In this document: one piece after another, positions 11,652 to 53,696 of the stretch
Layout: each line of letters starts with the position of its first letter
How positions within the stretch are numbered: position 1 is the stretch's first letter
Assembly: GCA_938091675.1 (NCBI GenBank)
Contig: CALKMX010000025.1
Span: 1 to 56,850, forward strand
Length of the DNA: 56,850 nt
Source of the DNA: an uncultured Opitutales bacterium
GTDB taxonomy: Bacteria; Verrucomicrobiota; Verrucomicrobiia; Opitutales; Seribacteraceae
Direction of reading: 5' to 3'
Position numbers and translations under genes: made by a program
Notes under the pieces: generated by a model
Database searches by the model: none
Told to the model about the DNA's origin: nothing
What the model saw: only the letters and a program-made list of their open reading frames with translations

Positions 11652-11676
11652 AATCACTCACTAGCCCAGAGTGATT
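11652..11676. terminator. Hairpin between convergent genes
   Basis: An 8-bp perfect stem (AATCACTC/GAGTGATT) with a 9-base loop lies across the ends of the convergent amidase and aldo/keto reductase genes. It could act as a terminator in both directions. On the minus strand the stem is followed by AAATTT, on the plus strand by no T-run. Confidence 0.4.
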
Positions 11677-12679
11677 TGGGCAAATTAATCTTCGCCACGA
11701 TCCGGTCAATTCTATCTTCCTCTTCCTGAGTAAAACATAAATTTTGTACTGCTTTTAAATTATCTCTTATCTGATCTACTGAACTCGCCCCCATGAGGGC
11801 ACTGGTGACCTTGTCTGTGCGAAGCACCCAGGATAAAGACATTTGGGCAAGGGACTGTCCCCGGGATTTAGCCATCTCATTGAGTTCTTGAATGACCCGG
11901 ATATTCTGCTCGCTTATTTCATTTTTTCTCAGGGGAGATTGCTGGATTCGTGCCCGAGAAGCTTCAGGGATACCGTTGATATATTTATCCGTCAGCAAAC
12001 CCTGGAAGAGTGGACAGAATGCAATGATACCGATTCCATGCTGAAAACAATAATCGAGAAGCTTATCTTCAGACCAACGATTTAGCATAGAATAGTTGGG
12101 TTGGTGAATCACTGGTTTTACAAATCCCCTGGATTTGCTAATTTGCAGAACTTCTTTGGTTTGGGCAGTTATGTAACTGCTAATCCCCACATATAATGCT
12201 TTTCCTTGGGTGACTGCGGTATCCAGAGCACCCATGGTTTCTTCAAGAGGTACATTTGGATCAAAACAGTGAGAATAGAAGATGTCGAAATAATCCAACC
12301 CGGTTCGTTTTAAGGATTGGTCAAGACTGGCAAGAATGTGTTTGCGGGTACCCCCCATCCCATAAGGGCCCGGCCACATATCGTACCCAGCCTTACTGGA
12401 TACGAGAAATTCATCCCTGGGCATTTGAGAAAGAATTTTGCCAACATTAATTTCCGCAGAGCCATAGGGGGGACCATAGTTATTGGCTAAATCAAAATTA
12501 GTAATGCCCCCGTCGAATGCGGCATGAATTATTTTGGATTGTTTTTCAGTAGGTTGGCCCCCTCCAAAATTATGCCAAAAGCCTAGGCTTAATGCAGATA
12601 GTTTTAAACCTGTATTTCCACAAGTGCGGTATGGCATCCGACCATCATATCTGGACGGGGGTCGGGCCGTCGGACTCAT
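11654..12679 (-). CDS. Aldo/keto reductase, YghZ (Gpr) type
   Basis: NADPH-dependent aldo/keto reductase of 341 residues. The opening RYDGRMPYR, followed by TGLKLSALSLGFWHNFGGG, is characteristic of the YghZ/L-glyceraldehyde-3-phosphate reductase subfamily, which supports the start at 12679 rather than the internal Met15. The catalytic tetrad is visible: Asp in NFDLANNYGP, the Tyr of the same motif, Lys in SSKAGYD and His in IFYSHCFD. It is the first gene after the jetC stop on the same strand, 34 bases away, and occupies the place where jetD would be expected in a Wadjet operon. It has no resemblance to JetD and looks like an unrelated metabolic gene. Confidence 0.9.
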   Translation of the reverse strand: MSPTARPPSRYDGRMPYRTCGNTGLKLSALSLGFWHNFGGGQPTEKQSKIIHAAFDGGITNFDLANNYGPPYGSAEINVGKILSQMPRDEFLVSSKAGYDMWPGPYGMGGTRKHILASLDQSLKRTGLDYFDIFYSHCFDPNVPLEETMGALDTAVTQGKALYVGISSYITAQTKEVLQISKSRGFVKPVIHQPNYSMLNRWSEDKLLDYCFQHGIGIIAFCPLFQGLLTDKYINGIPEASRARIQQSPLRKNEISEQNIRVIQELNEMAKSRGQSLAQMSLSWVLRTDKVTSALMGASSVDQIRDNLKAVQNLCFTQEEEDRIDRIVAKINLPKSLWASE

Positions 12680-12713
12680 CTCGGAAAATATTTCCTTCTA
12701 CAATCTAGATTGA

Positions 12714-15700
12714 TCAGGACTCAGTCGACTCAGCAACCGTTTCTTCTCCAACTTCTTCGTCGGACTCTTCACTATCTTGCTTTAAATATTCATGGACACT
12801 GAGATCTCCCACAAAAGACTCCCCTTCCCTCCTCTCAACCACATGGTATCTCTCCACATAGCGCTGCACCACATGAATCTTGGCGTCAAGTGGTTGAACA
12901 ATCAATAGCTGTAAATGGAACTCCTTGAACAGATCGAGCAGATACTGGGAAAACTCATCATCGGTCTTACTGAACATTTCATCCACTGCAACCAGACGAA
13001 ATGTCTCGGTTTGTTTGCCGCCGACATCAATTCCATACTGATAAGCAATCGCGGTGGCCAAAATTGTTGAGGCTAATCGATTTTTCTCTCCACCCGATTT
13101 CCCGGCTGCTCCGCTGTAGCTTTGACGAAGAATATCTTCGTCCTTGTAAAACTCATCGGCCCGGAACTTGAACCAGTTTCGGACATCGATCACCCGCTCT
13201 GTCCAATTAAGGTCCTGTTCTAACTCGCCCAGGAACTGCTCAACCCGGTGATAACGTTCACGGCGGCGTTCATCGTCATCATCTGACTCAAGATCACCTT
13301 CAAGGGCATGCCGGCGTAGCTTCTTAAATTTACGCACCCCATCATCTCCCGCATCCTCGATCATCAACTGAATGTAGGTTTGTTCTTTGCGATCAAAAGT
13401 TACCCGAGAAAGATGTTCGTTCAATTCACTAACCCGTTTACGGATGCGGTCACGGTGTGATTCAAGTGCCTCACTGAATCCAGAGACTTCCTCGGGTACC
13501 TGAACCCGTAACAGTTCCTCAAACCTTTGGTGATTCTTGGCCAAGTCCTCCTCCTCTATTTGTTTTCGGACCTGCTCGAAGGAGGAATAGGTGGTATCGG
13601 AATAACCCTCCTCAATATCGAGAACGAGCTCATCCCGAAAAGCCTGATTTCTTCCATCCGCAATGAAGCGTTGCATTGCAGCGACATTTTTATCGCGTAA
13701 TTTATCAAGTGACACTTCGAGCTTTTGCATACGAGCATCCACCTTGTGGGTGGCCGCACGGGCCGATTCCTCAATGTCATCGGGGGATTCTGGGGGCGTA
13801 CCAAACTCCTCTTCGATTTGAGCATAAAGCTCCTGAAGTACCTCTTCCGCCTTCTCGTTGGCTTCATCAGGGTCGTCACCTTCTGCCAATTCTGGAATGA
13901 GTTCATCACGGTATTTCCCTAATAACACACGAATCGCCTCAATGCGGGTTTCATTTCTTTCGGCACGGGCTTCCACTCCCCCGATTCGCTGGAGGATTTG
14001 ATCTCTCGTACCCTGCAAAGAATCAAGCTTTTCTACCAGAGCGTCATGATCCTCCTTTAATTTTTTGAGAACATCTGAGCCTCCAACAATCACCCGTTCC
14101 TCCTCTTCCAAATCGGCAATACGGGTGGATAACCCCAACACATCGATATCGGAAAACTCATTGGCACATGCCTGTAACTGCACACCGGCACGTAATTTTG
14201 CCCGTAAGGTTTGCCTTTCAAATTCAGACTCCCTTATGGAACGACCTGCATTATCTGCTTCCTCTCGCCATTTCCCCAATGCTTCATCCAATGACTTTTG
14301 TTTGGGACTGAGATCCCATCCCATAACCCAAGTGGATGCATCACCCATAAAAAAAGTATCATCTTTTTCTCTGAACGAACCACCGGTTTTAACAACGCCT
14401 TCCAGGGTGACCGCATCGCTTACCTCATCGAACTTCTTGTTTCTTTCCTCGATGCAAAGATGGGGAAATCTCCGATTAATTTCCCACTTAAGCCAAGCCT
14501 GTCTGGATTTTTCAATCTCGGAACGGATAACGAGTTTTGCCAGCAGGGAATCATCGTCTGGTTTGACTTTAGAATGACCCGAGCTTGGACAAATAAATGC
14601 AAGCCGGTCGGCAAGATGATTTTCCTCAAGAAATTTTTCTGCTTCATCTGCAAGTTTTGGAGGAACTACAATGGTAAGGGCAAATTGACGCAGTGTACGC
14701 TCGATAGGTCCAGTCCATTTCGACTCATCCGGCAGCACCTGTACGAGCTCGGCAACAAATGGAAGCTCAGCAATATCCCGATCCAAAGCGATGGCAAGGG
14801 ATGCTCTTAAGCGGGCGATTTCCGGAGGTACGTTGGTATTTGATTCTATTAAGTAATTTCTTTCATCCTCCAATGTTTCTACCCGTTCATTGGCTTTCTT
14901 TAAATGGTAGGATACTTCCACAATCTTTTCATCAAGTTCTGAGATTTTTCCTTCCATTCTGGGGAGTTGAGAATCCAATTCCCTACGGAGAGTAAGGAAG
15001 TCGTCCTCCTGCTTGACAAAAGATCCTTTCTCCCAGGCACTTAAATGCCGTTCAAAATTTGCTGCCCGTTTATTGACCACCTCACGTTTGTCGCGCAAGC
15101 GGTCAATTTCGGCCCCCACCTGTTCAAGCCTACGGTTTTCATCGCTATCAGACAGAGCACGTTCCAAGTGGTTGAGTTTATCGCGAAACCGATCAATCTC
15201 TCCTCTAGCGGTCTTTAGCCGAGCCCTCTCGGCCTCTTCCTGATGATTTAATTCGTCGATCCAATCTGTCCTACGCTCCAACTCTGCCTGTGCGTAAAAG
15301 GGCTCGATGGTCTGTCTGATTTTTTCCGTATTTGCACGCAGGTTCATCGAATCCAGGAACTGGGCATGAGTATTCTGAATTTCATCCAGCTGCTCAATTT
15401 GATAGGATGCAGTCTCGATCCTACGATGCGTGCTGCGAAGATCATCAAATCTTTCCTGCAGAGCAATTAATTTTTCTTTGGCTCCGCCATCATCAAGCAT
15501 GTGCTCTCTGATAAATTGGGTTAGGTCCTTCACATCTTTGATGCAGACTGCTTGATTAAAAATCGACATGGGTGAACGGGTGCCCAAATCTGCATCCAGA
15601 AAAAGCATGGATTCGAATTTTTTGTGATAGGCAGTAAAAGAATCAATGGTGTTGTAACCCCGTTCCTTGAGGATGCGTCTTACATTGTCTGAGTCACCGA

Positions 15701-16208
15701 GCCGATTGAAGTCCCCCTCGATAGTAAGCTTCCTTTTTTCTACCATGAATACCTTGTCTACTTTACCAGATGGCAAACACCACAGGATCTGGACTAGAGT
15801 AACCTCTGACTGGTACGCTTCATTAAAAAAATGGGCAAGCAATACGGTATAGGTTTCACCGGGCTTGCGCAGAGTTTCCTTACGGCCTTGCCCAGTTACT
15901 GAGTCATGTATTTCAGAATATGCACCAAGTACATAATCCCTTTCGTTTCGCTCTCGGCTACCTGCCTGGCTGGAAGCAACATTGTAGTTCCTAACCCGGT
16001 TAGGGACAAGCAATGTAAGCAGGGCATCCACTAAAGTTGATTTCCCTGATCCGTTGCGTCCGGTTATCATTGAAGTGCGCCCATCCGGTCTGATCGTATA
16101 TACCTTGTCGTGAAAGGTTCCCCAATTAAGCAAAGACAGTTCATGCAGGCGGTAACCGGCTGTTGATTTATCCGGTGAAAATTCAAGTTCTAATTGAGAC
16201 TCAAGCAT
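12714..16208 (-). CDS. jetC: JetC/MksB-like SMC ATPase
   Basis: SMC-type motor ATPase of 1164 residues, the MukB-like subunit of Wadjet/MksBEF complexes. It has Walker A GRNGSGKST (50-58), long coiled coils on either side of a central hinge-like region (about 480-640), the ABC signature KSGGEK (about 1037-1042) and Walker B VAVDE (about 1073-1077), so the ATPase looks functional. JetC of known Wadjet systems is close to this length. It overlaps jetB by eight bases and is the third gene of a tightly coupled operon. The C-terminus after about 1145 is an acidic tail rich in Asp, Glu and Ser that is not needed for the fold. In Wadjet the complex extrudes loops on circular plasmids and JetD cuts them. 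Without JetD the complex may serve DNA organisation instead. Confidence 0.92.
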   Translation of the reverse strand: MLESQLELEFSPDKSTAGYRLHELSLLNWGTFHDKVYTIRPDGRTSMITGRNGSGKSTLVDALLTLLVPNRVRNYNVASSQAGSRERNERDYVLGAYSEIHDSVTGQGRKETLRKPGETYTVLLAHFFNEAYQSEVTLVQILWCLPSGKVDKVFMVEKRKLTIEGDFNRLGDSDNVRRILKERGYNTIDSFTAYHKKFESMLFLDADLGTRSPMSIFNQAVCIKDVKDLTQFIREHMLDDGGAKEKLIALQERFDDLRSTHRRIETASYQIEQLDEIQNTHAQFLDSMNLRANTEKIRQTIEPFYAQAELERRTDWIDELNHQEEAERARLKTARGEIDRFRDKLNHLERALSDSDENRRLEQVGAEIDRLRDKREVVNKRAANFERHLSAWEKGSFVKQEDDFLTLRRELDSQLPRMEGKISELDEKIVEVSYHLKKANERVETLEDERNYLIESNTNVPPEIARLRASLAIALDRDIAELPFVAELVQVLPDESKWTGPIERTLRQFALTIVVPPKLADEAEKFLEENHLADRLAFICPSSGHSKVKPDDDSLLAKLVIRSEIEKSRQAWLKWEINRRFPHLCIEERNKKFDEVSDAVTLEGVVKTGGSFREKDDTFFMGDASTWVMGWDLSPKQKSLDEALGKWREEADNAGRSIRESEFERQTLRAKLRAGVQLQACANEFSDIDVLGLSTRIADLEEEERVIVGGSDVLKKLKEDHDALVEKLDSLQGTRDQILQRIGGVEARAERNETRIEAIRVLLGKYRDELIPELAEGDDPDEANEKAEEVLQELYAQIEEEFGTPPESPDDIEESARAATHKVDARMQKLEVSLDKLRDKNVAAMQRFIADGRNQAFRDELVLDIEEGYSDTTYSSFEQVRKQIEEEDLAKNHQRFEELLRVQVPEEVSGFSEALESHRDRIRKRVSELNEHLSRVTFDRKEQTYIQLMIEDAGDDGVRKFKKLRRHALEGDLESDDDDERRRERYHRVEQFLGELEQDLNWTERVIDVRNWFKFRADEFYKDEDILRQSYSGAAGKSGGEKNRLASTILATAIAYQYGIDVGGKQTETFRLVAVDEMFSKTDDEFSQYLLDLFKEFHLQLLIVQPLDAKIHVVQRYVERYHVVERREGESFVGDLSVHEYLKQDSEESDEEVGEETVAESTES

Positions 16209-16824
16209 CTTCTTCCTCCATTTCCTCGTCGAGACCAGGGGCTCTTCGTTTAATTTGATTTTTTACTTCAGTGAGTTTTTCAGGAGGCAATTTGGCCTTA
16301 ATGATTCGCTCAACTCGGTAAAGGCCCTCATCCTTATCACGAACTTTTTTTATAATGCCCCACTCCTCAAATTTATTGATAAGTCCAGCAATCTGACGAT
16401 GGACTTTTTTCTCGTCGTGAAGCTCAGGATAATACGGAGCCATTAGCTCGGTAAGATCAAGGCTCGATCGATAAAGATGATCTCCCTCTTCCTGGTTCTG
16501 CTCAAAGCGCATCAGCTCTTCACGTAATAAAACCATAAAAATAGTCTGGTGATAGGAAAGGCGGGTACGGCGTAACACCCGTGGCAACGGAGAGGATGTG
16601 ACATCATCCCAATTCTCATCCTCCTCGGAATCTTCTTCACGCTGCCTAACATAGGCATAACCGGCGGAGTCATCCCGGGCTACATCTAGCCCCATCTCTC
16701 CAAAATGGCCTTTAATTTTTTCCCATTCTGCCCCAAGGCGACTCCAAAGATCCAAGTCTTCCTGATAAATAGGACCGTTCAATAAGCGAACGATTACATG
16801 TCGGTGAGTGATGGCTGGATTCAT
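16201..16824 (-). CDS. jetB: JetB/MksE-like DUF4194 kite subunit
   Basis: Protein of 207 residues matching the DUF4194 family, the MukE-like winged-helix (kite) subunit that binds the kleisin in MukBEF-type complexes. Supporting features are its length, its acidic middle (EDSEEDENWDD), the motif LRRTRLSYHQTIFMVLLREEL and a C-terminal winged helix with GLINKFEEWGIIKKV. It overlaps jetA by the four bases ATGA and jetC by eight, which gives strict translational coupling and keeps the three subunits in fixed ratio. Confidence 0.87.
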   Translation of the reverse strand: MNPAITHRHVIVRLLNGPIYQEDLDLWSRLGAEWEKIKGHFGEMGLDVARDDSAGYAYVRQREEDSEEDENWDDVTSSPLPRVLRRTRLSYHQTIFMVLLREELMRFEQNQEEGDHLYRSSLDLTELMAPYYPELHDEKKVHRQIAGLINKFEEWGIIKKVRDKDEGLYRVERIIKAKLPPEKLTEVKNQIKRRAPGLDEEMEEEDA

Positions 16825-18275
16825 AAGCTGTTTCGTTGAAAGATGAGTTGCTCGACCTTTACATATCTGGGCTGGGATGGACGGTTTAAATCAACTTCGA
16901 TGAGCTCGTTGGCAATAATTTCATGACGCGGATCTTCACCGGCAATTACGCGGTAGCAGACTATCTCAACCACACCCCGTTCCAATGGATATCTCTCGAC
17001 CATTTCGGAGAGGGTAATTTGCTCAACCTCATCCAAGCTCTCAGTTACACGGCTTCGGTATTTCTTAAGGTCCAGAGGCTCGCCAACCGAGCCCAGGATT
17101 TCGTTAATCCAATCTGAATTCTCTGGCTTAGCGGGTTTCACTTCTGCAAATGCTTCGACCGCTTTGGGTTCCCAAAATTCTGCCTCCATCAAGGTGAAAA
17201 ATTGTGGTCTGATCTCGATTTCAAAATCCCAATCATCCAAGGGCGTTTCTCGCAGGCGATAGGCATGGCTTCGGATTTCGGAAAGTGTTTCCCTGATCTG
17301 TCTGCCTCCCCCACCTGCATGATCTCCAACCACCTGCCTGAGCTTGCGGCTGATACGACCGTAGGCACCATGAGCAGAACTGGCTTCTCCGAATAAGCGG
17401 TCACCAAGATTGGAAAACACTTTCTGAGGATCCAATCCTCTCCTCTTGGCAATATCGGAAGTTTGTTCGGCTAGGCTTCGAAACCTTCGAGCAAGGGATG
17501 GATTGGTCATCATTTCCCTAAATCCAAAATAGCTCTTGCCCTGATCACATGCTCGCAATTCCTCATCCGCATCGAGCACATGTTCAACAATGTCTCCCTT
17601 GGATGCTTTTCCCTGTGCATAAAGGTTGGAAATCTCGCGAGCATGATCACGAAAAAACTCTTCAATGGCACGAAAATCAGAAAGAAAATGATCTACGAGG
17701 TCAGAAAGATCGTAAACTTGATCACGAATTACATCTTCCCCAAAAATAGGTGCCTCTCCAGTCTCTTGAATTCGTTGAATCTCCAAATCGATTTCTTCAC
17801 GCTTTCGGACAAGCTCGCGTATGCGAGTTTCCGGATCAGAATTCACTCCATTGCTCAGCTCCTGCATTTCATGGAGAATTCGATTGAATCGAGACTCTGT
17901 GGTAGCATAGCCACGATGCTGCATAGCAAGTAAATCATTCAGCCAACTGAGGGCCTTTTCAGAATGTCGGGTAAGCCTGAAAACATACTCTTCCCGTTCT
18001 TCATGGTAAGTCTTAGTCAAATAGCGGTGTTCTTCATCACACCATTCATCCAAATATTCCTGTGGACTGCGCTTGGGTGCTTCTGCTTCCTCTAATTCGC
18101 GAATCTGTTCAATATGTTCTGCTAATGTGGCGGAAAGCTCTTCCTCGGATGCTTCAATCACCCCCCATTTTTTGAATGTTTTGAAAAAGAAACCAGCAAC
18201 AAAGGAACCTAACCTGCCACGCATGAGGCGTAGTGCGGGGGACTCATCGAAGAGATGTAAAAATTCCTCATCCAT
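16821..18275 (-). CDS. jetA: JetA/MksF-like DUF3375 kleisin
   Basis: Kleisin subunit of 484 residues of the DUF3375 family, equivalent to MukF. I place the start at the ATG at 18275, where MDEEFLHLFDESPALRLMRGRLG matches the expected N-terminal winged helix. A TTG 18 codons upstream would also give an open frame. Family motifs seen: YLDEWCDEEHRYLTK, FRLTRHSEKALSWL, TESRFNRIL, a central helical region ending at DQGKSYFGFREMM, and a C-terminal winged-helix part (about 400-484). As first gene of the operon it sets transcription for jetB and jetC. Upstream, bases 18276-18428 separate it from the lipoprotein gene and would carry its promoter. Confidence 0.87.
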   Translation of the reverse strand: MDEEFLHLFDESPALRLMRGRLGSFVAGFFFKTFKKWGVIEASEEELSATLAEHIEQIRELEEAEAPKRSPQEYLDEWCDEEHRYLTKTYHEEREEYVFRLTRHSEKALSWLNDLLAMQHRGYATTESRFNRILHEMQELSNGVNSDPETRIRELVRKREEIDLEIQRIQETGEAPIFGEDVIRDQVYDLSDLVDHFLSDFRAIEEFFRDHAREISNLYAQGKASKGDIVEHVLDADEELRACDQGKSYFGFREMMTNPSLARRFRSLAEQTSDIAKRRGLDPQKVFSNLGDRLFGEASSAHGAYGRISRKLRQVVGDHAGGGGRQIRETLSEIRSHAYRLRETPLDDWDFEIEIRPQFFTLMEAEFWEPKAVEAFAEVKPAKPENSDWINEILGSVGEPLDLKKYRSRVTESLDEVEQITLSEMVERYPLERGVVEIVCYRVIAGEDPRHEIIANELIEVDLNRPSQPRYVKVEQLIFQRNSL

Positions 18276-18428
18276 AGACTTTGTGAAGTAGTAAAGACTT
18301 GAGAGTGAAATGCATTTTGGGAACGTCAAAAATAAGTTATCCCCACTCCGTTCAAGTTGTTAAAAACTTATTGAGCGAAATTTGAAAAAATGAATTTTGA
18401 TTGCTTGATCTTGGAGATGACTAGCTTA

Positions 18429-42831: not shown

Positions 42832-43944
42832 TCAGCCTCCCAAATAAGTTAAGGCTCGAGGTATTGGTAGGGTGTAAAACGCGAAACGGTCCAGACCGAT
42901 ATGTTCTATTTTAGCGGTCACTTGATTCATGACGTTTTCAACAGCTGATGGTGCAAGAGAAGTGTAAACAAGAGCCCATTCTTCATTGCAAGAATCTTCG
43001 CCTAAACCAGACTGATCTGCCATAACTCCAAAATTAGTACTAACACCTGGTGCACCTGCATCCAATATTGAATCATAAACCTCTGAGTAATAATCTCTAG
43101 GTACAATACAATACAATCCGACTAAATCCTGTAAGATTGTGGTATTTAATGAGGAAGATTTGCTTTCACCACTAATTCTCCAATCTTTTCCTCCCTTGAT
43201 TTCATCAAGAGCAGCAATGACTTGTTCCATTGAAGCTCCATGCGATGAATTGGAGACAGTACTACTAACATTGATAATCCCGTCAGATACTGGAATGGAA
43301 TACATAAAGCCTCTACCAGGCTCGGTAATTCTGCCTGCCCTTGCCATGCTAGTGAAAACTTCGCTTGATTCAGAACGATCCACAACACACCACACAAACT
43401 CTTTTTCAGGTCCCTTGGTCATGCGTAATAAAGGAATCTTGTCACGAATGCCCCCGCCTTCTCCAAAGGTTACGGTTGGACCAGCAGCTCCAGCAGATAA
43501 GGCCGCTTGAGCAATATCTTCCGCCACCCCTTTCTCACAAATGCAGCAGATTGCTTCCATGGTAACCAAATCATTTGCTACTACATCACCCTCAACTCCA
43601 TCTGTTAAAGGGAAGTTCTGGGAACAAAAAGCTTTATCACAGGAGATGGAGAAAATTGCCCCGGAACCAACTCGGTCAAGCCGTCCAGATGAAATTGCCA
43701 CCTCGGAAATACGCTGCTTAACAGAGTTTGGTACCAAAACTTGAACCAGAGATTGTTCAGGTGCTGGAGGAGGGAACATCTTTGATAAAAAGCTACCGCC
43801 ATTGATTATTGATCCTCTGGCAGCAACATGAAAGATTCCTTTGGCTCCGGCTTTTTTAAGCTCTGAAGATACGGTAGATAATGAATCTTTGGGTAAGATT
43901 AAGTTCACCAAAGAGACATGATTGATAGATTCTAATTTATTCAT
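42832..43944 (-). CDS. Protein with three PII-like modules
   Basis: Cytoplasmic protein of 370 residues built, as I read it, from three PII/GlnB-like domains in one chain: about 11-104, 127-220 and 274-368. Each has the alternating strand-helix start, and the two complete ones end with the PII-type G-x-G-x-x-F-x-I-P-V pattern (RVGSGAIFSIS, EPGRGFMYSIPV, FAFYTLPIPR). The Gly-rich EGGGIRD in module 2 may be the T-loop equivalent. A trimer-like barrel could form from one chain. It directly abuts the stop of the DUF1538 membrane-protein gene, so it is probably translated from the same message and is the regulator of that transporter. No uridylylation tyrosine can be identified. Confidence 0.72.
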   Translation of the reverse strand: MNKLESINHVSLVNLILPKDSLSTVSSELKKAGAKGIFHVAARGSIINGGSFLSKMFPPPAPEQSLVQVLVPNSVKQRISEVAISSGRLDRVGSGAIFSISCDKAFCSQNFPLTDGVEGDVVANDLVTMEAICCICEKGVAEDIAQAALSAGAAGPTVTFGEGGGIRDKIPLLRMTKGPEKEFVWCVVDRSESSEVFTSMARAGRITEPGRGFMYSIPVSDGIINVSSTVSNSSHGASMEQVIAALDEIKGGKDWRISGESKSSSLNTTILQDLVGLYCIVPRDYYSEVYDSILDAGAPGVSTNFGVMADQSGLGEDSCNEEWALVYTSLAPSAVENVMNQVTAKIEHIGLDRFAFYTLPIPRALTYLGG

Positions 43945-46107
43945 TTATGCAGTCTCCATTTGGTGTTCAACAGGTGGAGTATCTTTGGGTTTTTTCCTAA
44001 CAAGTAGACCAACGGTAAGAACTGTTATAATTGGCCCAACTGAAGCAAGTGAAAGTACACCAAATCCGTCTATCGCTCCAGTTTTGGCCCCAATACCAAG
44101 ACCCATTGCTAAAACCAGAGGCACCGTGATTGGTCCTGTCGTAACCCCTGCACTATCCCAACCAAAATTCACAAAATCCTCACTAGATATAAATGTGAGA
44201 ATAAGCAACAGTGTGTAAGGAGGTATGAGTAAATACCAGAGTTCCAAATTGAATGCAATCTTAGCAACACCAGTCGCAATTCCTAACGCAACTCCTGTAG
44301 CAACGGCTTGCATGAGTAAATTTTTCTTAAAAGCCCCGACTGTAATCTTCTCAACTGTAGAACCGAGCGCATTAAGAGCAGGTTCTGCCAGTGTAGCTCC
44401 GTATCCCAATATAAAGCCAAACAATATAGCAAGACACTTACCAACGGTAGATGATTGAAAGATAGGATCAATAAAACCTTCTGATTGCCATGGCTGAATA
44501 GGTGCGAAGCTGGAAACAACATTTCCACCGAGTTGTTCACCAAGTGGTGTTAAACCAAGGGCAATGCCTAGGTTGAACAAGCACATACCGATAACAGCAC
44601 AAAGAATTCCGATGACCAACTCATCCATATGTTTGGGCTTTTGCCTTAGCCCTATGATTAAAACGAATAAAAGAATCGAGCACAACGGAACAATTGCCCA
44701 AATTGCACCCTCCAAGGCGCCACGATCTTGATCGGGACCAGAGAGAATTCCGTCAGTTTTGGAATAATTTATAGAACCATCAGGCTCAATGCTATAAAAA
44801 TCTTCGCCAGGGTCAGCCTTCCCGTTGTTATTTTTGTCAATTTCCTGGGGCTTAAATGTGTTAGGGAAAAAATCAAATTTATTAGTAAATGCAGTGGCAA
44901 TGTCTGCATCTGGATTCCAAACGTCATCCGGTGCTTTATAACCTTCACGAACAACATAAAGTTTTGCACCTTGCACGAGTACATTTTCCCGTTCCCCATT
45001 AGATAGACTGTCAGGCACAATAACTCCTTCCGCAACTTTTGTCTTTAGCGTATAACCCTCAGGAAGAGATTTGTTCTCATTAAGGTAGGTTTGTACCATT
45101 TTCCTCTCTTCTACAGATAAGGACCAGGACAACTCCGCTTCTCCAACACCTGAAGCCGAATCAATCTTGGATTGAGCATTTAGGTCTCCAAATTTTTGCA
45201 GATCAATGGGGTAATTTTTCCCATATTCACCTGCTTTTATGTGCCAATCAGCAGTGGATTCTGAAGCAAAGTAATAATTATCCGTTTTGAATAAATAAAG
45301 TGCATAACACATGACTGCTAGAATCGGGAATAGCGATGCAAGGGTAACAACCCCAAACCCTGTATTGCTTGAACCTCCTGTAGAAACGATCCTGCAAACT
45401 CCTATCCCAAGAGCTAAAACAAGGGGGACTGTAACCGGTCCTGTGGTAACAGCACCACAATCCCACGCCAAACCTAATACATGTTTGAGCCTGTCATCCG
45501 AAAACTGCATGTAAAGGGTAATGCAAGAAAGAACAATAACTCCTACATAGATGAAAGGTTTAAGAGACCAACCTTTGTAAAAGCGAAGGACACCTAAAAG
45601 AACCGCAATTCCAACTCCTACACCCACACAATTTACCAGAAGTCCAGCCCCGGTATTTAAAATAGTCCACAACAGAGGTGCGGAAGTTGGATCAACTCCA
45701 GACCCAGCAGCACGTAAAACTCCGATGGCGGGTTCAGCAAAAGTTGCAAAGGCACCCAATACAAACCCGAATGCCAAACTTGTCGGAAGACATGGAATAC
45801 CCAAAATCTTCTTTCTGGGTAAAGTCGACCCAAGAGCTTCTCCGAGAGGCATGAGCCCCAAGCGTAATCCTTCCATGAAGAAAGCAAGACCTATGATGAC
45901 AATCATAATGCCGGCAGCGATCATCAAAGAATAGACAATGGGCAATCCAAGGACAAGCACCTGAAAGACAATTAAGTAGAGGATGATAAACCAGACGCAT
46001 TGGATCTGCTCGACTACTTTATCTTTTGAAAATGACAAAAGAATGCCAATTTTCTGCTGTAAGGTTAACTGTAGCTTTTTACTATCGGACGATTGTTCAG
46101 TGCTCAT
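43945..46107 (-). CDS. Double DUF1538 membrane transporter with soluble insert
   Basis: Membrane protein of 720 residues with two DUF1538 halves, about 35-270 and 470-705. Matching motifs in each half are MPLGEALGS/TPLGEQLGG, ATFAEPAIGVL/ATLAEPALNAL and WDCGAVTTGPVTVPLVLALG/WDSAGVTTGPITVPLVLAMG, so the fold is an internal repeat. The halves are joined by a soluble stretch (about 275-465) holding an EF-hand-like calcium loop, DKNNNGKADPGE at 424-435. A pair of DUF1538 proteins (UmpAB of Halomonas) has, as I recall, been reported as a Na+/H+ antiporter, so cation transport is a reasonable guess. The PII-like gene follows immediately, which points to regulation by cell nitrogen, energy or nucleotide state. 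Confidence 0.85.
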   Translation of the reverse strand: MSTEQSSDSKKLQLTLQQKIGILLSFSKDKVVEQIQCVWFIILYLIVFQVLVLGLPIVYSLMIAAGIMIVIIGLAFFMEGLRLGLMPLGEALGSTLPRKKILGIPCLPTSLAFGFVLGAFATFAEPAIGVLRAAGSGVDPTSAPLLWTILNTGAGLLVNCVGVGVGIAVLLGVLRFYKGWSLKPFIYVGVIVLSCITLYMQFSDDRLKHVLGLAWDCGAVTTGPVTVPLVLALGIGVCRIVSTGGSSNTGFGVVTLASLFPILAVMCYALYLFKTDNYYFASESTADWHIKAGEYGKNYPIDLQKFGDLNAQSKIDSASGVGEAELSWSLSVEERKMVQTYLNENKSLPEGYTLKTKVAEGVIVPDSLSNGERENVLVQGAKLYVVREGYKAPDDVWNPDADIATAFTNKFDFFPNTFKPQEIDKNNNGKADPGEDFYSIEPDGSINYSKTDGILSGPDQDRGALEGAIWAIVPLCSILLFVLIIGLRQKPKHMDELVIGILCAVIGMCLFNLGIALGLTPLGEQLGGNVVSSFAPIQPWQSEGFIDPIFQSSTVGKCLAILFGFILGYGATLAEPALNALGSTVEKITVGAFKKNLLMQAVATGVALGIATGVAKIAFNLELWYLLIPPYTLLLILTFISSEDFVNFGWDSAGVTTGPITVPLVLAMGLGIGAKTGAIDGFGVLSLASVGPIITVLTVGLLVRKKPKDTPPVEHQMETA

Positions 46108-46165: not shown

Positions 46166-47437
46166 CTATTCCCGCCAATTAGCATTAGCCAATGTTAGTG
46201 ATGTTTTATTGATTCCAGATCGGAGCCGGACGGGCACATTCCACACCGCACCAGTTTTCCCAACTGGTGCTGTTCCGACTAAATAAAATGAACCAGTGGG
46301 TAAATTTTTGAACTCTCCGAATCCGTCTATGTCTGTTCGAACCCGGTAACCAGTACCTAATTCTACTTGTTTTAAGAGAACATTTCGAATTCTTTTATAA
46401 ATACCAGTGTAAGCAAATGGGGATTTCCTTGATTGGGCCCATAGTTCTTCGAATGAGTTCACTTGTGGGAAATCGTTTAAGTTAATGCCTTCATCAAAGA
46501 GTAGGTTTGGGAAACTTTTGGAGATCAGAAAAAATTCTGTGTAAAACACTTCTTTATTTTTCCCATTTAAAAGAGTAACAACAGCATCAAATTCAAGACT
46601 GCAAAATTCCGAGATGCTCGAAATGTAAGTGGGAGTGGGTTGACCTGGAGGAACAGAATTGGAACGGTTGTAGATTTGACCGGACTGATTAGTCCTCTGG
46701 GTACCGTTATTATGGATCGAATCAACTCGGGGTTGAAGCGAATCGATGCCATTTTGAAACCTATTGCTCTCAATCCGCAAACCATTAATTTCGTGAGACT
46801 TTTGGATCAGGCTTGATTTATGCAAGGCGATCTCGTCTTGTAATTTTTGGAGTTGGCCGCTCTGATTGGAAGTATACCTAGGCTCGCTCTGGACAAGGGT
46901 TTCAGGACTTCTTGGATCACTCGACCTCAATCGTTGGATTTCGAAAATTAGCTCCTCGTTTAAACGGGTTAACGAAGCAATCGTCTGGTCCTTGCGAAGA
47001 TTTATTTTTTTTAGTTCTTCCAAACTTAAATCATTTTTTGCAGAGATGTCATTGCCTTGCTGAAGTTCTGTCAGGTTAAAGGATGAAGCCGGCAACATGG
47101 CGGTAGGCAAATCAAGGTCCACTTCATTCTCCACAGAATTTTTTTCAATAGTGTGGTCGGTTGTTTTGATTGCATTAGGGCCCTCCTCATTCGTTACATC
47201 AGCGTACTGAGCTCCATCTAAAACATCAATTGCTTCAACTTCATCACCGCTATCCAGAAATGCCGCAAGACTTTTAGATCCTCCTGTCTGGCTAACTATA
47301 AGTGATGTAAAATCAATATTATCTCCCCCTTCTTCAGCATCACGAGAAGTAGAAATAGAGGTTTCTGAACAGGAAGATGCAAGAAAGGTAAGAAATACAG
47401 CTATGAATGTTATTAGAGGCATACTTTTCTCTTTCAT
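46166..47437 (-). CDS. Lipoprotein with coiled-coil middle and C-terminal beta domain
   Basis: Predicted lipoprotein of 423 residues from the ATG at 47437 (ATG at 47455, six codons upstream, and at 47422 are alternatives). The signal MKEKSMPLITFIAVFLTFLASSC ends in a lipobox cysteine. After an acidic linker come a coiled-coil stretch (about 135-235, with SLTRLNEELIFEIQRLRS and similar) and a C-terminal domain (about 285-423) containing TDIDGFGEFKNLPTGSFYLVG, a pattern like carboxypeptidase-regulatory or SpaA-type beta sandwiches. I do not recognise the family. The divergent coiled-coil rod gene starts 77 bases away, so the two may be regulated together. Confidence 0.65.
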   Translation of the reverse strand: MKEKSMPLITFIAVFLTFLASSCSETSISTSRDAEEGGDNIDFTSLIVSQTGGSKSLAAFLDSGDEVEAIDVLDGAQYADVTNEEGPNAIKTTDHTIEKNSVENEVDLDLPTAMLPASSFNLTELQQGNDISAKNDLSLEELKKINLRKDQTIASLTRLNEELIFEIQRLRSSDPRSPETLVQSEPRYTSNQSGQLQKLQDEIALHKSSLIQKSHEINGLRIESNRFQNGIDSLQPRVDSIHNNGTQRTNQSGQIYNRSNSVPPGQPTPTYISSISEFCSLEFDAVVTLLNGKNKEVFYTEFFLISKSFPNLLFDEGINLNDFPQVNSFEELWAQSRKSPFAYTGIYKRIRNVLLKQVELGTGYRVRTDIDGFGEFKNLPTGSFYLVGTAPVGKTGAVWNVPVRLRSGINKTSLTLANANWRE

Positions 47438-47440
47438 AAC

Positions 47441-47452
47441 TTGCCTAGGCAA
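47441..47452. promoter_or_regulatory. Perfect 12-base palindrome between divergent genes
   Basis: TTGCCTAGGCAA is a perfect palindrome three bases upstream of the chosen lipoprotein start and 61 bases upstream of the coiled-coil gene, a typical location for an operator. If the lipoprotein starts at 47455 instead, it would be inside its coding sequence. Confidence 0.35.
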
Positions 47453-47513
47453 CATTCATATTAACGGCAAGGTTCTTATTTACAGGTGTATCTTTTTTTG
47501 ACAAAAACAAATT

Positions 47514-49892
47514 ATGTCTCTTCTACCCCCTTCCGAGACTAATTCGCTTGAACGCGAATTAAATTTCTTGAAGCAAACAATAAGCTCTCTTCGTGAACAA
47601 CTAGAGCTCAACTTGGATTTGCATGATTCGGAGATCCAATCATTGGAGGAAAACCATAAAAACAGGGAGTCTAGCCTGCACGGAGTTATTTTAAGATTGC
47701 GGGATGATTATGAACAGCTTCAGACCCAACATCAGCACGAACAGCAACAACTAGACAAAAAATATATAGCTGAACATAAGTGCCTAACTTCCCTGATCGA
47801 AGAGCTAAGAAATAGATTAGATTTTTCCAAAGAAGAGGTCAAAGACACTGCTCAAAAGACAAAGGCACTTCACGCAAATGAAATTTTAGGATTACAAGAG
47901 TTGGTTTCCTCTTTGCGGGAGGAATTGGAATCGAAGGACAATGAATTGGCCTCGATTGAGCAAAATGTCTCCCAACGAAATCAGGGCGAGATCATTAGAT
48001 TGCAAGAACTATCCGCCAAGCTGCGTGAAAAAATCAACCGAATCGAATTCCGTAAAGAACAAGAGATTGGAAAAATTATTTCTTCCGGGAAATTGGAATC
48101 CAAATCGCTTCAAGAAACCATCGAGAACTTAAGAAGCGCCCTGGAAGAATCCAAGGCATCGAAACAAGAAGAAATTCAAAAAGCTGTTGCTGAAGCAAAC
48201 TTACAAAATAAATTGCTTAAGGATTCTTTGCAAAAGAGCCGTGAAAGGCTTGATTTGAGTAACATCAGGCACCAGGAGAAGATTCAAAAAAATTCTCTCT
48301 CTCATTCCCAGGAAGTATCCTCTCTTCACGACACCATCAATTTATTAAGAGAAGAAATTGATTCTTTTGAATCCAAAATTCAGGACGCGATACAAAATGA
48401 AAAGCGTGCAAACACTCAAGAAATTCGCCAACTCCGTTCCTCTCTTTCAAGTGTAAGAAATAATCTAGAAAGGAGCCAAGCTGAAGCTCAAAATAAAATA
48501 CAGGAAGCGGAAAGCGGAAAGCAAAAAGAAATAGATTCTTTACGGCACACCATTGCAACTCTCAGATCAGAATTAGAAGAAAGCGAAGTTGCTAAATCGC
48601 AGGAAATCCAGCGTGCACTCAGCTCCAAAAATGCTGAAATTAAACAGCTGAAAGATTCGATGACGATTATGAGGCAAAATTTAGATAGGATTGAAGCAAG
48701 AAACGCTGAGTCACTTCAAAAAGCTTTCCAACAGAGTGCTGCGGAAAAAGAATCCCTTCAAAAAACAATTCACGCACTTCGACATGAGGTTGAATCCGTT
48801 CATATTCAGCAAGCTGATGCTGTCCAGGAGGCCGAACGTATAAAAAATCAGGAAATTGAACAGCTAAGAAACTCCCTGCTTATCGTAAGGTCTTCACTTG
48901 AGAGGGAGAAAGCAAAACTTGGTTCCGAAGTACAAAAGGTTACCTCCGAATCAGCAAAAGAGATTAATGGGTTAAAATTGTTGGTTACAGAATTGCGTGA
49001 TCGCATTGACGAAGTAAAAGCACAGGAAGAAAGTAACATTCAAAGCGCACTCGGGTCTGCTAATGCTGAAATTTTTCAACTTAAAGAAAGCTTATCTCAA
49101 ACCCGAGAGAAAATCGTTCTAGAACAAAACATTCATTTAGATAAAATTCAGTCATTAGAAAGTCAGAATTTCTCTGAAATCCGAAATTTACGCTCAGTCA
49201 TTACTAAACTAAGAAACCAGATAGAAGAAATTCAAGCTGAGCACGAATCAAAAGTGCAAAAGATCACCAGCGAATTACATAAAGAAAACTTATCGCTAAA
49301 AGAGCATACATTAAATCTTAGAGAAAAGCTGGATGAAGCCCAACTCAGTCACCTCACCGAATTACAGCAAAAAGTAACCGAAAAAGAAAACCTGTCCAAA
49401 GCAAATAAGGATACCCTGCTTAAGTTGCGTGATGAACTAGAGCAAGCTACTGTTGATGCCGAAACAAAAGTACAAAAGGCAGTTTCTTCTCTTAACCAAG
49501 AAAATCTCGCCCTTAGGCAAACCTTGGGCAGCATAAGAATTAAATTAGATCGTGCCAAAGTTGAAAAACAGGAGGCTATTCAAAAAACTATCAAATCTTA
49601 TGAGCTGGAAATCCAGCATTTAAAAAATACAATTTTAACACTTCGCAGAGAAACTGACCAATTAAACTCCAAGCTCCTTGAAGATGCCCAAAAAAATACA
49701 TCTTCAAATGCTAATGAAATTAACCATTACCGGAATATGATCCGTTCACTAAGGGATGAGATTGACCACAGAGGATTTCTTAACGATGAAAAACTTAAGA
49801 AAAACTCACAAAAGACGGAAATGGAATTTAAGCATCTCAAAGATACGATTATTGAGTTAAGGTCCAAATTAGATAAACACCATGTCAACTGA
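47514..49892 (+). CDS. Coiled-coil rod of exact 36-residue repeats
   Basis: Protein of 792 residues made of an 18-residue leader, 21 full repeats of 36 residues with no insertion or deletion, and half a repeat: 18 + 756 + 18 = 792. Each repeat has Leu/Ile at positions 1, 5, 8 and 12, an invariant Arg at position 9 in all 22 units, acidic residues at 13 and often 33, and often Ile/Val-Gln at 23-24. There is no signal peptide or membrane segment, so it is cytoplasmic. A 36-residue period equals ten turns of a straight alpha helix, and the whole rod would be about 119 nm long. I do not recognise it as a known family. It overlaps the cyclase gene by 11 bases, which implies coupled translation and a joint role, perhaps as scaffold. 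Confidence 0.85.
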   Translation: MSLLPPSETNSLERELNFLKQTISSLREQLELNLDLHDSEIQSLEENHKNRESSLHGVILRLRDDYEQLQTQHQHEQQQLDKKYIAEHKCLTSLIEELRNRLDFSKEEVKDTAQKTKALHANEILGLQELVSSLREELESKDNELASIEQNVSQRNQGEIIRLQELSAKLREKINRIEFRKEQEIGKIISSGKLESKSLQETIENLRSALEESKASKQEEIQKAVAEANLQNKLLKDSLQKSRERLDLSNIRHQEKIQKNSLSHSQEVSSLHDTINLLREEIDSFESKIQDAIQNEKRANTQEIRQLRSSLSSVRNNLERSQAEAQNKIQEAESGKQKEIDSLRHTIATLRSELEESEVAKSQEIQRALSSKNAEIKQLKDSMTIMRQNLDRIEARNAESLQKAFQQSAAEKESLQKTIHALRHEVESVHIQQADAVQEAERIKNQEIEQLRNSLLIVRSSLEREKAKLGSEVQKVTSESAKEINGLKLLVTELRDRIDEVKAQEESNIQSALGSANAEIFQLKESLSQTREKIVLEQNIHLDKIQSLESQNFSEIRNLRSVITKLRNQIEEIQAEHESKVQKITSELHKENLSLKEHTLNLREKLDEAQLSHLTELQQKVTEKENLSKANKDTLLKLRDELEQATVDAETKVQKAVSSLNQENLALRQTLGSIRIKLDRAKVEKQEAIQKTIKSYELEIQHLKNTILTLRRETDQLNSKLLEDAQKNTSSNANEINHYRNMIRSLRDEIDHRGFLNDEKLKKNSQKTEMEFKHLKDTIIELRSKLDKHHVN
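47568..49889 (+). repeat. 108-base tandem coding repeat, 21.5 units
   Basis: The coding sequence of the rod protein consists of 21 units of 108 bases (36 codons) and a final half unit from 49836. The repeat shows in the protein, where the register is constant, but the DNA units have diverged strongly, so the array is old and kept by selection on the protein rather than being a recent amplification. Confidence 0.88.
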
Positions 49893-52152
49893 ATCAAATC
49901 CTCACCAACCCAAAAAAAGAACGGCTAAGTTTTCTGAGATGCTACTCCAGGTGACCACAGACCTGGCGAAAACGAAAAGCTTAGACGAAGCACTTGAAAC
50001 CCTCGTAAAAATAACCACATCGACCATTGGTGCCGAAAGAGGAACTATTTTTCTTAACGACGCGGCAACTGGTGAATTATACTCGCGGATTGCTCAGGGG
50101 AATTTCCGCAGGGAAATCCGTATCATGAATAGCAAGGGAGTCGCTGGGTGGGTGTTCTCTCATAACGAAGGTGCCATTATACCTGATGCCTACAAAGATG
50201 ACCGCTTTAATAAGGCGGTAGATGTAAGGACTGGATTTCGCACCAAAAGTATACTGTGTGCACCGCTTCGCACAGTAAATGGCGAAAAAATAGGAGTTTC
50301 TCAAATCTTAAACAAGATCGAAGGAGAATTCACACAAGACGACCTTGATTTGCTAGAAGCTATGACCGAACAGGCGGCTATTGCAATTCAAGGAAATATT
50401 ATTGTCGAACAAGTTGAAGCTGCCCGCAAACAGGAATTAGAATTCCTGGATGTGGTGTCACAGGTCTCCTCTGAACTGGAATTGACCCCTCTTCTGCAAA
50501 AAATTATTTCCACTATCTCCACCATGTTGGATTGTGAAAGAGCTACACTTTTTATTAATGACGAAAAAACAAGCGAATTATATACTGAAGTAGGTGAGGG
50601 TTTAGACGAAAAATCAGTCATTCGTTTCCCTAACCATCTTGGGATTGCCGGCACTGTTTTTACCTCTGCAAAAGCTGTAAATATACCTCATGCGTACGCC
50701 GATTTAAGGTTCAATCCGAGCTTCGATAAACAGACGGGGTTTTTTACGCGTTCGATTCTATGCATGCCGGTTTTAAACAAAGAAGGAAAGACCATTGGCG
50801 TCAGCCAAGTTTTAAACAAAAGAGGCGGTTCTTTTAACCAAGAAGATGAAAAGCGTCTTGCTGCATTTACTTCCCAGATTTCCATGGGAATTGAAAATGC
50901 AAAGCTCTTTGACGATGTACAAAATCAAAAAAATTATTCTGAAAGCATCCTGTCCAGCATGCACGATGCTGTGATTACAGTCGACGAGAACAAAGTAGTC
51001 AAAACTTGTAATCCAGCAGGATTAAAGATTTTTAAGTCTCCTATTCTGACAGATATTTTAGGTACTCCTATTGATGAATTGTTGGGTACAGAAAACGAAT
51101 GGTTGAACAGTAAACTAGAATCAGTAACAGAACAGGAGGACTTTCTAGACGCCACTCTTCAAGTTCAAAATGAAAAACTTTCGGTCAATGTATCGATCAC
51201 CCCTCTTCTTGGACAGAAAGATGAAAACCTCGGAATTATGATCATGATCGAAGATATTAGTTCTGAAAAAAGAATGAAATCTACGATGTCGAGATACATG
51301 GACCCTGAGCTAGCAGATCAACTGATGAATGCTGGGGATAGCCAAGATGTAATGGGGGGCAAACAAAGCATTGCTTCCGTTTTGTTTTCTGATGTTCGCA
51401 GCTTTACCACAATAACGGAAGAACTCGGAGCCCAAGGAACTGTAAAATTACTCAACGATTACTTCACCATAATGGTGGATTGCATTACGGATGAAGGTGG
51501 AATGCTAGATAAATTCATTGGGGATGCAATGATGTGTATTTTTGGAACACCCATTCCTCATGATGACGATCCGGATCGAGCCGTTCGAGCTGCTATTCGT
51601 ATGATGACAGATTTGAAAGTTTTTAATCTCAAAAGATCAGCAGAAGGAAAAATGCCCATAGATCATGGTATGGGAATTAATACCGACTCTATTGTTTCCG
51701 GTAATATTGGCTCTCCCAAAAGAATGGATTACACAGTTATTGGAGATGGTGTAAACCTAGCAGCTAGGATCGAGAGTGCCTGCAAGCAATATGGGGCTCA
51801 CATTCTAATTAGTGAATTTACCTACAAAGCAGTGAAGGCAACTTACAGAACTCGTCAGGTAGACTATGTAATTGTAAAAGGAAAGACAGAACCAGTTGGA
51901 GTTTATGAGGTATTGGACTTTCACGATGATAGCTCCTATCCAAATATGGTAGATGCCCTAGGAAGCTTTAATGATGGATATCGTGCATGGAATGCAGGAA
52001 AGTGGGAACAAGCCATTAAATTATTTAATGCCGTTAAAAAGATTAATCCGAACGACAAAGCCGCTCAGTTGTACCTGGATCGGTGCGATTACATGAAGAA
52101 GAATCCTCCCAAAAAAGATTGGGATGGCGTCTGGGTAATGACTTCAAAATAA
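49882..52152 (+). CDS. GAF-GAF-PAS class III adenylate cyclase
   Basis: Cytoplasmic enzyme of 756 residues. Two GAF domains (about 25-180 and 195-345) carry the NDAATGELYSRIAQG and NDEKTSELYTEVGEG motifs. A PAS domain follows (about 350-465), then a class III cyclase domain (about 490-680) with metal ligands Asp504 (FSDVRSF) and Asp548 (FIGDAMM), and base-specificity residues Lys544 and Asp616 that indicate ATP rather than GTP as substrate. Asn625 and Arg629 (GVNLAARIE) stabilise the transition state. The last 65 residues resemble a TPR unit (AWNAGKWEQAIKLFNAVKKINPND). GAF domains suggest ligand-gated cAMP synthesis. The gene overlaps the rod gene before it and is followed by two TPR genes, so it is the enzyme of the module. 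Confidence 0.93.
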   Translation: MSTESNPHQPKKRTAKFSEMLLQVTTDLAKTKSLDEALETLVKITTSTIGAERGTIFLNDAATGELYSRIAQGNFRREIRIMNSKGVAGWVFSHNEGAIIPDAYKDDRFNKAVDVRTGFRTKSILCAPLRTVNGEKIGVSQILNKIEGEFTQDDLDLLEAMTEQAAIAIQGNIIVEQVEAARKQELEFLDVVSQVSSELELTPLLQKIISTISTMLDCERATLFINDEKTSELYTEVGEGLDEKSVIRFPNHLGIAGTVFTSAKAVNIPHAYADLRFNPSFDKQTGFFTRSILCMPVLNKEGKTIGVSQVLNKRGGSFNQEDEKRLAAFTSQISMGIENAKLFDDVQNQKNYSESILSSMHDAVITVDENKVVKTCNPAGLKIFKSPILTDILGTPIDELLGTENEWLNSKLESVTEQEDFLDATLQVQNEKLSVNVSITPLLGQKDENLGIMIMIEDISSEKRMKSTMSRYMDPELADQLMNAGDSQDVMGGKQSIASVLFSDVRSFTTITEELGAQGTVKLLNDYFTIMVDCITDEGGMLDKFIGDAMMCIFGTPIPHDDDPDRAVRAAIRMMTDLKVFNLKRSAEGKMPIDHGMGINTDSIVSGNIGSPKRMDYTVIGDGVNLAARIESACKQYGAHILISEFTYKAVKATYRTRQVDYVIVKGKTEPVGVYEVLDFHDDSSYPNMVDALGSFNDGYRAWNAGKWEQAIKLFNAVKKINPNDKAAQLYLDRCDYMKKNPPKKDWDGVWVMTSK

Positions 52153-52163
52153 TTTTGTCCGAA

Positions 52164-53696
52164 ATGGAAAATAACGCAAAAGTACTCCTTGAAAGAGCGA
52201 TTGAATTAGATCCGAACCTCGCTAATGCTCACTACAAATTGGGGGTTCTTTATCAATCCCAGGAAGACTTTAGTTCCGCAATCGAATATTTCCAGCGAGC
52301 TGTTACCCTTGACCCCTCCTTCCCTGCTGCTGAATGTGAATTGGCCATTGAATTAGGTAGAGAAAAAAAATACGAAGAAGCCAGGGAGCATTTTTTAAAT
52401 GCTTTGGAAGCGGACCCGAACTTCAAAAAAGCTTACTTCCATTATGCTCTTTTACTAGTTGAAATTAATGACATTGAAGAGGCGAAAAACAATTTTGAAA
52501 AAGTGGCAGAGATCGATCAAAATTTTGCCCCTGCTTATTTCCACAAAGCGAAACTTCTTACAAATCCTGATGATTTTGAGGAAGCCCAAAAAAATTATGA
52601 AACTGCTATTGATATAAATGAGGATTACGCAGAAGCTCACTACTTCCTCGGAAAATTACTCTTCGGGGGAAGAGCGACGGATAAAGATGGTTCAGTTGTC
52701 AATAAAAGTGACTGGCAAGCTTCAAAATCTCATTTTAATAGAGTTCTACAACTTGACGATGTAAACCACAAAGCTTGCTACAACCTAGCAAGAATACTCT
52801 TTGAAGAAAATTCTATTAAGAAAGCAAAGTCTTATTTGGCTAAAGCCTTAAAATTGGTCCCCGAGTATTCAAAGGCTCATTTTCTTTATGCTAGAATTTT
52901 TGACTTAGATAATAATTTTGAAAAAGCTCTCCTTCACTACAACAAATCGATTACTCAATTTAGTGATAACCCTGATGCCCTATTCCATCTTGGTAAATTG
53001 CATTTCGTTTTTAAAAACTTAGATGATGCAGAAAAGAACCTTAGGCAATCTATTCAGCTAGACCCTCAAAATGCCGAAGCACACTATTACTTGGCCAAAA
53101 TCCTCACTAATCACGAAGATCCGAGCCTTGCCAAAAAACATTTCTACCGAGCGTTGGAAATTAATCCTGATTTCGCCCATGCCTACTATGACTTAGCTTT
53201 TCACTCGGAAAATTCGGGCGATATCAATGAAGCTAAAATGCACTTTCAAAAAGCTACTGATGTGGAGCAAAATTTCGCTGAAGCATATTTTAACCTAGCA
53301 AGACTATCGTTTACACCTGCTGAGTATGAATTCGCAGAAAGAAATTTCGAAACAGCATTGGAGATAAAAAAGGATTTCGATGAGTGTCACTATTTTTTGG
53401 GCAAGCTACTGGCCAAAGGTGAAAAAATGACCAAGGATGGGACTCTTTTGATCGAACCACAAAGAGAAAGAGCTGCGAATCACTTTCGTGAAGCGCTCAA
53501 GATTAATCCTGATAACTATAAATCTTACTACGAATTGGGTATTCTGCTTTCACAACAAGAAGAGTATATCGAAGCATTCGATGCCTTGCATAAATCTATT
53601 AAAATTAACCCGGAATTTGCGGATGGACATTACGAACTTGCGGTTCTTTTGATGAATGAATCTGCACAAACTGTTATTTCAAAACGAAAGAAATAA
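52164..53696 (+). CDS. TPR protein built from two 250-residue copies
   Basis: Cytoplasmic protein of 510 residues, almost all tetratricopeptide repeats (about 14 units). The ATG at 52164 is used. An open frame starting at 52083 inside the cyclase gene is less likely. Residues 1-250 and 251-500 match in register with a constant offset of 250 and no gap: AEAHYFLGKLL at 156-166 corresponds to DECHYFLGKLL at 406-416, and both copies have a 12-residue insert of the pattern D-G-x-x-x after it (TDKDGSVVNKSDW, MTKDGTLLIEPQR). Each copy is 7 repeats of 34 plus 12, about one superhelical turn. The protein starts 11 bases after the cyclase stop and is probably its partner, binding cyclase or rod. Confidence 0.88.
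   Translation: MENNAKVLLERAIELDPNLANAHYKLGVLYQSQEDFSSAIEYFQRAVTLDPSFPAAECELAIELGREKKYEEAREHFLNALEADPNFKKAYFHYALLLVEINDIEEAKNNFEKVAEIDQNFAPAYFHKAKLLTNPDDFEEAQKNYETAIDINEDYAEAHYFLGKLLFGGRATDKDGSVVNKSDWQASKSHFNRVLQLDDVNHKACYNLARILFEENSIKKAKSYLAKALKLVPEYSKAHFLYARIFDLDNNFEKALLHYNKSITQFSDNPDALFHLGKLHFVFKNLDDAEKNLRQSIQLDPQNAEAHYYLAKILTNHEDPSLAKKHFYRALEINPDFAHAYYDLAFHSENSGDINEAKMHFQKATDVEQNFAEAYFNLARLSFTPAEYEFAERNFETALEIKKDFDECHYFLGKLLAKGEKMTKDGTLLIEPQRERAANHFREALKINPDNYKSYYELGILLSQQEEYIEAFDALHKSIKINPEFADGHYELAVLLMNESAQTVISKRKK

Follow-up and report, generated by a model that had tools for sequence, protein, structure and literature searches.

Which role may a bacterium assign to a protein of 792 residues that follows a single 36-residue lattice from end to end? 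This question is raised by a gene of an uncultured member of the Opitutales, an order of the Verrucomicrobiota, on a stretch of 56,850 nucleotides (contig CALKMX010000025.1) that is called the window in the following. The gene and its parts, together with the two genes downstream, are located as follows:

47514..49892, + strand: rod gene, 792 aa, with 22 Arg sites on the 36-residue lattice (ORF call, register cut)
47514..47567, + strand: N-terminal half unit, 18 residues, holding all prolines of the protein (P5, P6)
47568..49835, + strand: 21 full 36-residue units; position 1 is Leu at 20/22 sites, position 9 is the invariant Arg
49728..49835, + strand: last full unit, HYRNMIRSLRDEID... (relatives: HFKxMVxALRxEID...), usually the best-conserved unit among close relatives
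49836..49889, + strand: C-terminal half unit, LKDTIIELRSKLDKHHVN (register cut)
49882..49892, + strand: overlap of rod stop and cyclase start, 11 bases, ATGnnnnnTRA, present in most close relatives
49882..52152, + strand: predicted GAF-GAF-PAS-class III adenylate cyclase of the CyaB1/CyaB2 type (domain and PDB matches), the constant partner of the rod
52164..53696, + strand: TPR protein, third gene in the main family (f1, the family of the window) and in f18; the ORF opens at GTG 52083, with ATG 52164 as the likelier start

A strict 36-residue lattice

The first-pass annotation had divided the protein into 22 units in register (18 + 21 x 36 + 18 residues) without insertion or deletion, and this cut holds; ORF coordinates and length (22 x 36 residues) are exact. 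Counted from the conserved Leu, Arg occupies position 9 in every unit (22/22), as claimed. The description of the repeats as "perfect" applies to unit length and register, but not to sequence, since the units are only about 25–30% identical at the protein level and 40% at the DNA level. The periodicity itself was confirmed by self-similarity, which peaks at shifts of 36, 72, 108 and 144 residues only (BLOSUM62 per residue 0.87, 0.99, 0.82 and 1.09). The next-best shift among 149 scores -0.03, and 300 shuffles at 18/36/72 reach -0.24 at best. DNA identity between units (mean 40%, maximum 52%) is too low, on average, for a recent tandem duplication as the source of the units. Features that the annotation had overlooked are an alternation of two unit types (A and B), further conserved unit positions and the constant pairing with a cyclase gene.

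Distribution and length of the rods

Altogether, we collected 45 rods from Verrucomicrobiota, including that of the window, all of which share one lattice. A protein search covering 110 related genomes gave a rod in 40, the genome of the window included: 35 belong to its family, of which 42 genomes were searched, and five to two further families of the order. The seven f1 genomes without a match are each 78% complete or less. These 40 rods form the protein-search set used below; the remaining short rods were found via the cyclase or by alignment search. Searching from the cyclase revealed short rods in three genomes of f13 and in f31, and an alignment search of 388 genomes across the phylum returned these finds and only one more, in G490, whose family lies within the phylum but outside the class. 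With 6/388 genomes of this sample carrying a rod, the family is rare and the search was specific.

The number of Arg sites per rod differs strongly between lineages, with 3 in f31, 4 in f13, 6 in f49, 9 in f4, 16 in g2, 20 in g3, 22 in g1, 18, 22 or 24 in g4 and 24 in the complete copy of f18. The proposal of a "molecular ruler" is thereby narrowed: the rods have no single length, and only within some genera is it constant, so that a ruler could be lineage-specific at most. The f18 rods (L061 3854-6499, L069 1-744) end past the lattice in a basic tail (KRKRSNRRKRS / KRKRRVKRKRA), which is absent from most f1 rods.

Within the protein-search set, all unit spacings are 36 or 72 residues (72 where a weak unit was skipped) and no indel was observed; prolines occur at the rod ends only. 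Arg was found at 791 of 798 nominal sites. Only one of the seven exceptions is a genuine replacement, by Asn (L040); another is an undetermined residue, and the remaining five fall in stretches by which the N-terminus was probably over-extended. When the rod of the window was compared with each of five rods of the same genus (49–63% identical), 12–18 of the 22 Arg9 codons differed without a single residue change, whereas 9–17 of the 30 other Arg residues were replaced. This divergence of codons under an unchanged residue reflects purifying selection and not recent duplication. Also strongly conserved in the units of the family are Gln24 (~94%), Glu33 (~90%), Asp/Glu13 (~95%) and Lys/Arg2 (~88%), and the motif (N)xFLKQTI, just after the N-terminal half unit, is kept across the family.

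Helix geometry and predicted structure

The view of the protein as a straight alpha-helical rod is supported by a hydrophobic period of 3.60 in the rod of the window, a division of each unit into two heptads and two hendecads, the lack of internal proline and an all-helical AlphaFold2 model. The unit consensus is LKESLSSLREKLERAKAREEEKIQKAVASSENEIKS for A and LKETISSLREELEKAEIEKEEAVQKAVSSSNNEIKQ for B; the core register runs 34a-1d-5a-8d-12a through the heptads and continues in hendecads 12–23 and 23–34, with Ala at the hendecad d positions 15 and 26. An undistorted helix has 3.63 residues per turn (PMC9858780), and as 36/10 = 3.60 is close to this value, a nearly straight coil is expected. 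The dimeric proteins FilP and Scy typically have hendecad cores rich in Ala (PMC9858780). AlphaFold2, run with three aligned rods, placed helix at 6–190 and 198–791 with the sole break at 191–197, at modest confidence (pLDDT 66, pTM 0.21) and as a single-chain model that is silent on oligomers. An alpha-solenoid of the TPR/PPR type was rejected in view of the predicted continuous helix and the lack of internal proline.

Of the conserved residues other than Arg9, Asp/Glu13, Gln24 and Lys/Arg2 share one helix flank, and Thr/Ser4 and Glu33 occupy the other. Arg9 and Glu13 may form an intrahelical pair, and Glu33 and Lys2' may form an interhelical g-e' pair, which, judged from the register, is what a parallel dimer would be expected to have. 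The rod is pictured as a two-stranded coiled coil in the cytoplasm, nearly straight and probably parallel, with a length of about 118 nm (792 x 0.149 nm), in which the order heptad, heptad, hendecad, hendecad would bring Arg9 back on one face every 5.35 nm if straight.

Such a stripe might suit a side binder that, like tropomyosin, aligns one unit with each subunit of a polymer such as MreB, with a spacing of about 5.3 nm. Thirty-six residues of straight helix measure about 53.5 angstrom, near the 51–55 angstrom spacing of actin-family filaments, MreB is encoded in the genome of the window, and invariant columns are more frequent on the e/b flank of the helix (0.38, or 0.31 without Arg9) than on the g/c flank (0.24). 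However, MreB is widespread (found in 12/14 control genomes) and the rod rare (6/388), a mismatch of 2–3 angstrom in each unit would add up along the 22 units, and rod and MreB genes show no link. We consider this explanation very improbable. Bactofilin, another candidate for a periodic partner, was not detected in the genome of the window. More generally, the Arg stripe could bind a periodic polymer instead, with no specific partner being indicated.

A CyaB-type adenylate cyclase as constant neighbour

Wherever the sequence reaches far enough past a rod, the next gene is a cyclase, and every cyclase of at least 54% identity with inspected upstream DNA is preceded by a rod; beside cyclases at 42% identity (G429, L100), no rod was found. 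Within f1, the cyclases are 83–93% identical and the rods 30–63%, and cyclase identity in other lineages amounts to 54–74%. As the rod stop and the cyclase start overlap in ATGnnnnnTRA, translational coupling is likely.

The neighbour shows the arrangement of CyaB1/CyaB2-type enzymes, i.e. tandem GAF, PAS and a class III catalytic domain, and its PDB matches are cyclase domains and the CyaB2 GAF pair (1ykd). It thereby resembles Anabaena CyaB1/CyaB2, which also have tandem GAF, PAS and class III domains and an NKFDE-type motif in the second GAF; no rod gene is known beside the cyanobacterial genes. The enzyme carries LFSDVRSFT, DKFIGDAMM, KRMDYTVIGDGVNLAARIE and NKRGGSFNQEDE, which we take to be catalytic motifs and the NKFDE type of cNMP-binding GAF domains. 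This reading as catalytic and cNMP-binding rests in part on published work (PMC4411481). In addition, the genome of the window encodes four proteins with cNMP-binding domains above the cut-off, so that effectors of cAMP may exist.

Genomes of f1 also keep genes for PII-like, DUF1538, lipoprotein-like and TPR proteins in the neighbourhood, whereas f4, f13, f31 and f49 retain essentially just rod and cyclase, which marks these two as the functional core. In the window, the PII-like protein and a two-copy DUF1538 membrane protein (42832-46107, - strand) form a pair that adjoins the rod operon in nearly all f1 genomes. Divergent from the rod, a predicted lipoprotein (LASSC signal; 46166-47455, - strand) is fast-evolving, contains a short coiled coil and matches no family; its position is conserved in f1. 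Further away, a type I Wadjet defence system (11654-18329, - strand) was recognized by the PADLOC models for JetA, JetB and JetC, with a 341-aa ORF (11654-12679) at the place expected for JetD but without a PADLOC model match at 1e-5. In G490, the rod-cyclase pair is directly preceded by a gene (L117 6019-6912, - strand) with a weak match, below the cut-off, to PDEase_I (3'5'-cyclic nucleotide phosphodiesterase). A phosphodiesterase as general neighbour of the rod was dismissed, since the homologues of G070 and G183 sit elsewhere in the genome.

One possible, if doubtful, reading sees the rod as a partner that locally dimerises or activates the cyclase through a single C-terminal coiled-coil segment, with the extra units serving as a spacer or a lineage-specific elaboration. 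Rods of 3, 4 or 6 Arg sites stand beside the same cyclase in distant lineages, and the last full unit is usually the one best conserved among close relatives, both of which favour it. However, Arg9, Gln24 and the lattice are retained throughout rods of 24 units, beyond what a passive spacer would need.

Alternating units and charge staggers

Units separated by an even number of positions resemble each other more than those separated by an odd number (similarity 1.45 at distance 2 vs 1.18 at distance 1). Permutation of the unit order within single proteins gave p values of 0.025 or less for the rod of the window and for L036, L045, L065 and L061; the alternation was not significant for similarity in L048 and L062, nor in the 9-site rods L066 and L068. 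The two unit types differ in mean net charge (A +0.62, B -1.71), and over positions 7–22 the A units carry more positive charge than the B units in all 38 of 38 rods. When close relatives are aligned unit by unit, blocks of 2 and 6 units prove to have been cleanly gained or lost, and complete f1 and f18 rods all have even Arg-site counts. Alternation and even-step changes together indicate that the working module of long rods has 72 residues.

According to a coarse charge score, the favoured parallel staggers are 32, 104, 112, 176, 184, 248, 256, 320, 328 and 400 residues, i.e. odd multiples of 36 with a deviation of 4 to either side, and one even case (292 = 288+4) is among the best. Exact multiples of 36 score unfavourably, and only offsets of about four residues score favourably. 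The tail of myosin II has a charge repeat of 196 residues and staggers at odd multiples of 98 (PMC7365473). By analogy, the alternation of basic A with acidic B units would allow long rods to pack side by side with a shift of an odd number of units. In both systems, the half-period of a charge repeat sets parallel staggers (196/98 in myosin, 72/36 in the rod), but the myosin tail is heptad-based, eukaryotic and attached to a motor, and there is no homology. Staggered packing of this kind would account for the intolerance of indels and for the gain and loss of units in even numbers. Short rods with the same partner (3–4 Arg sites, L099 and L093) imply that great length is not essential and that staggered assembly is not ancestral, which suggests that partner binding came first and length later.

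Comparison with known coiled-coil proteins

The first-pass annotation knew of no family with a 36-residue repeat, and homology and literature searches gave none either. Pfam, NCBIfam, PHROG, the PDB and the open-access literature contained no match to the rod repeat, although it may be described elsewhere; a phmmer search of the PDB with the rod returned nothing, and neither did phages and plasmids. Weak matches to Pfam ATG16, NCBIfam SMC and the like are attributed to coiled-coil composition, as they are mostly below the cut-off and differ from relative to relative. In the few matches above the cut-off (e.g. ApoO and Rab11-FIP3 in L061), no stretch passes alone.

The rod behaves like known coiled-coil rods, yet it is outside the groups of IF-like and DivIVA-like proteins by their defining features. 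IF-like proteins are recognized by a coiled-coil rod of more than 80 residues without known functional domain (PMC2680258), which the rod has. Their segmentation with linkers and flanking head and tail is not found, the lattice being continuous and free of linkers and internal prolines. DivIVA-like proteins (DivIVA, GpsB, FilP, Scy) carry an N-terminal RGYDxxEVD motif before the coiled coil (PMC9858780); the N-terminus of the rod, MSLLPPSETNSLERELNFLKQTISSLR, has none. It also differs from SMC/Rad50-like proteins, as TIGR02168 scores 33.9 bits against a cut-off of 567 and a head domain is lacking.

Crescentin and FilP/Scy are likewise long cytoplasmic coiled-coil rods, and FilP and Scy share the Ala-rich-core hendecads. 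The rod differs from them in its uninterrupted 36-residue lattice without linkers, its invariant Arg, its variable unit number and its obligate cyclase neighbour, and it has no sequence match to them. Striated-fibre assemblin and tropomyosin have strict super-repeats of 29 and about 40 residues. They resemble the rod as long coiled coils with such a repeat, but have another period and no invariant Arg, are eukaryotic and show no detected homology.

These likenesses raise the possibility of a self-assembling IF-like cytoskeletal filament with a mechanical role, the cyclase being merely co-regulated. A long coiled-coil rod with alternating charge would fit, and bacterial coiled-coil rods of this kind often polymerise (PMC2680258). 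However, the constant neighbour across classes is a cyclase and not another cytoskeletal gene, and the short forms are far shorter than known IF-like rods, so that this explanation appears improbable.

A proposed scaffold or partner of the cyclase

The rod would be co-produced with a CyaB-type cyclase and is most likely a scaffold or partner of this enzyme. The specialised and well conserved C-terminal unit would be the likely docking site in physical contact with the cyclase, and the repeated body may contribute length and multivalency. Taken as a whole, we give roughly even chances to a straight coiled-coil scaffold or cyclase partner, whose long forms probably associate laterally at odd multiples of 36. 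A more far-reaching version, which we regard as rather unlikely, is a cAMP signalling polymer, in which straight rods with a 5.35 nm lattice and odd-unit staggers would build filaments that carry and regulate an adenylate cyclase. To our knowledge, this type of scaffold is known in no bacterium.

With 3 to 24 units of equal length and no indels detected in the 40 rods checked, the family is a natural series on which it can be tested what determines length, straightness and lateral stagger in long coiled coils. If the proposal is true, a dedicated rod-shaped partner of a bacterial cyclase would represent a new principle of second-messenger organisation.
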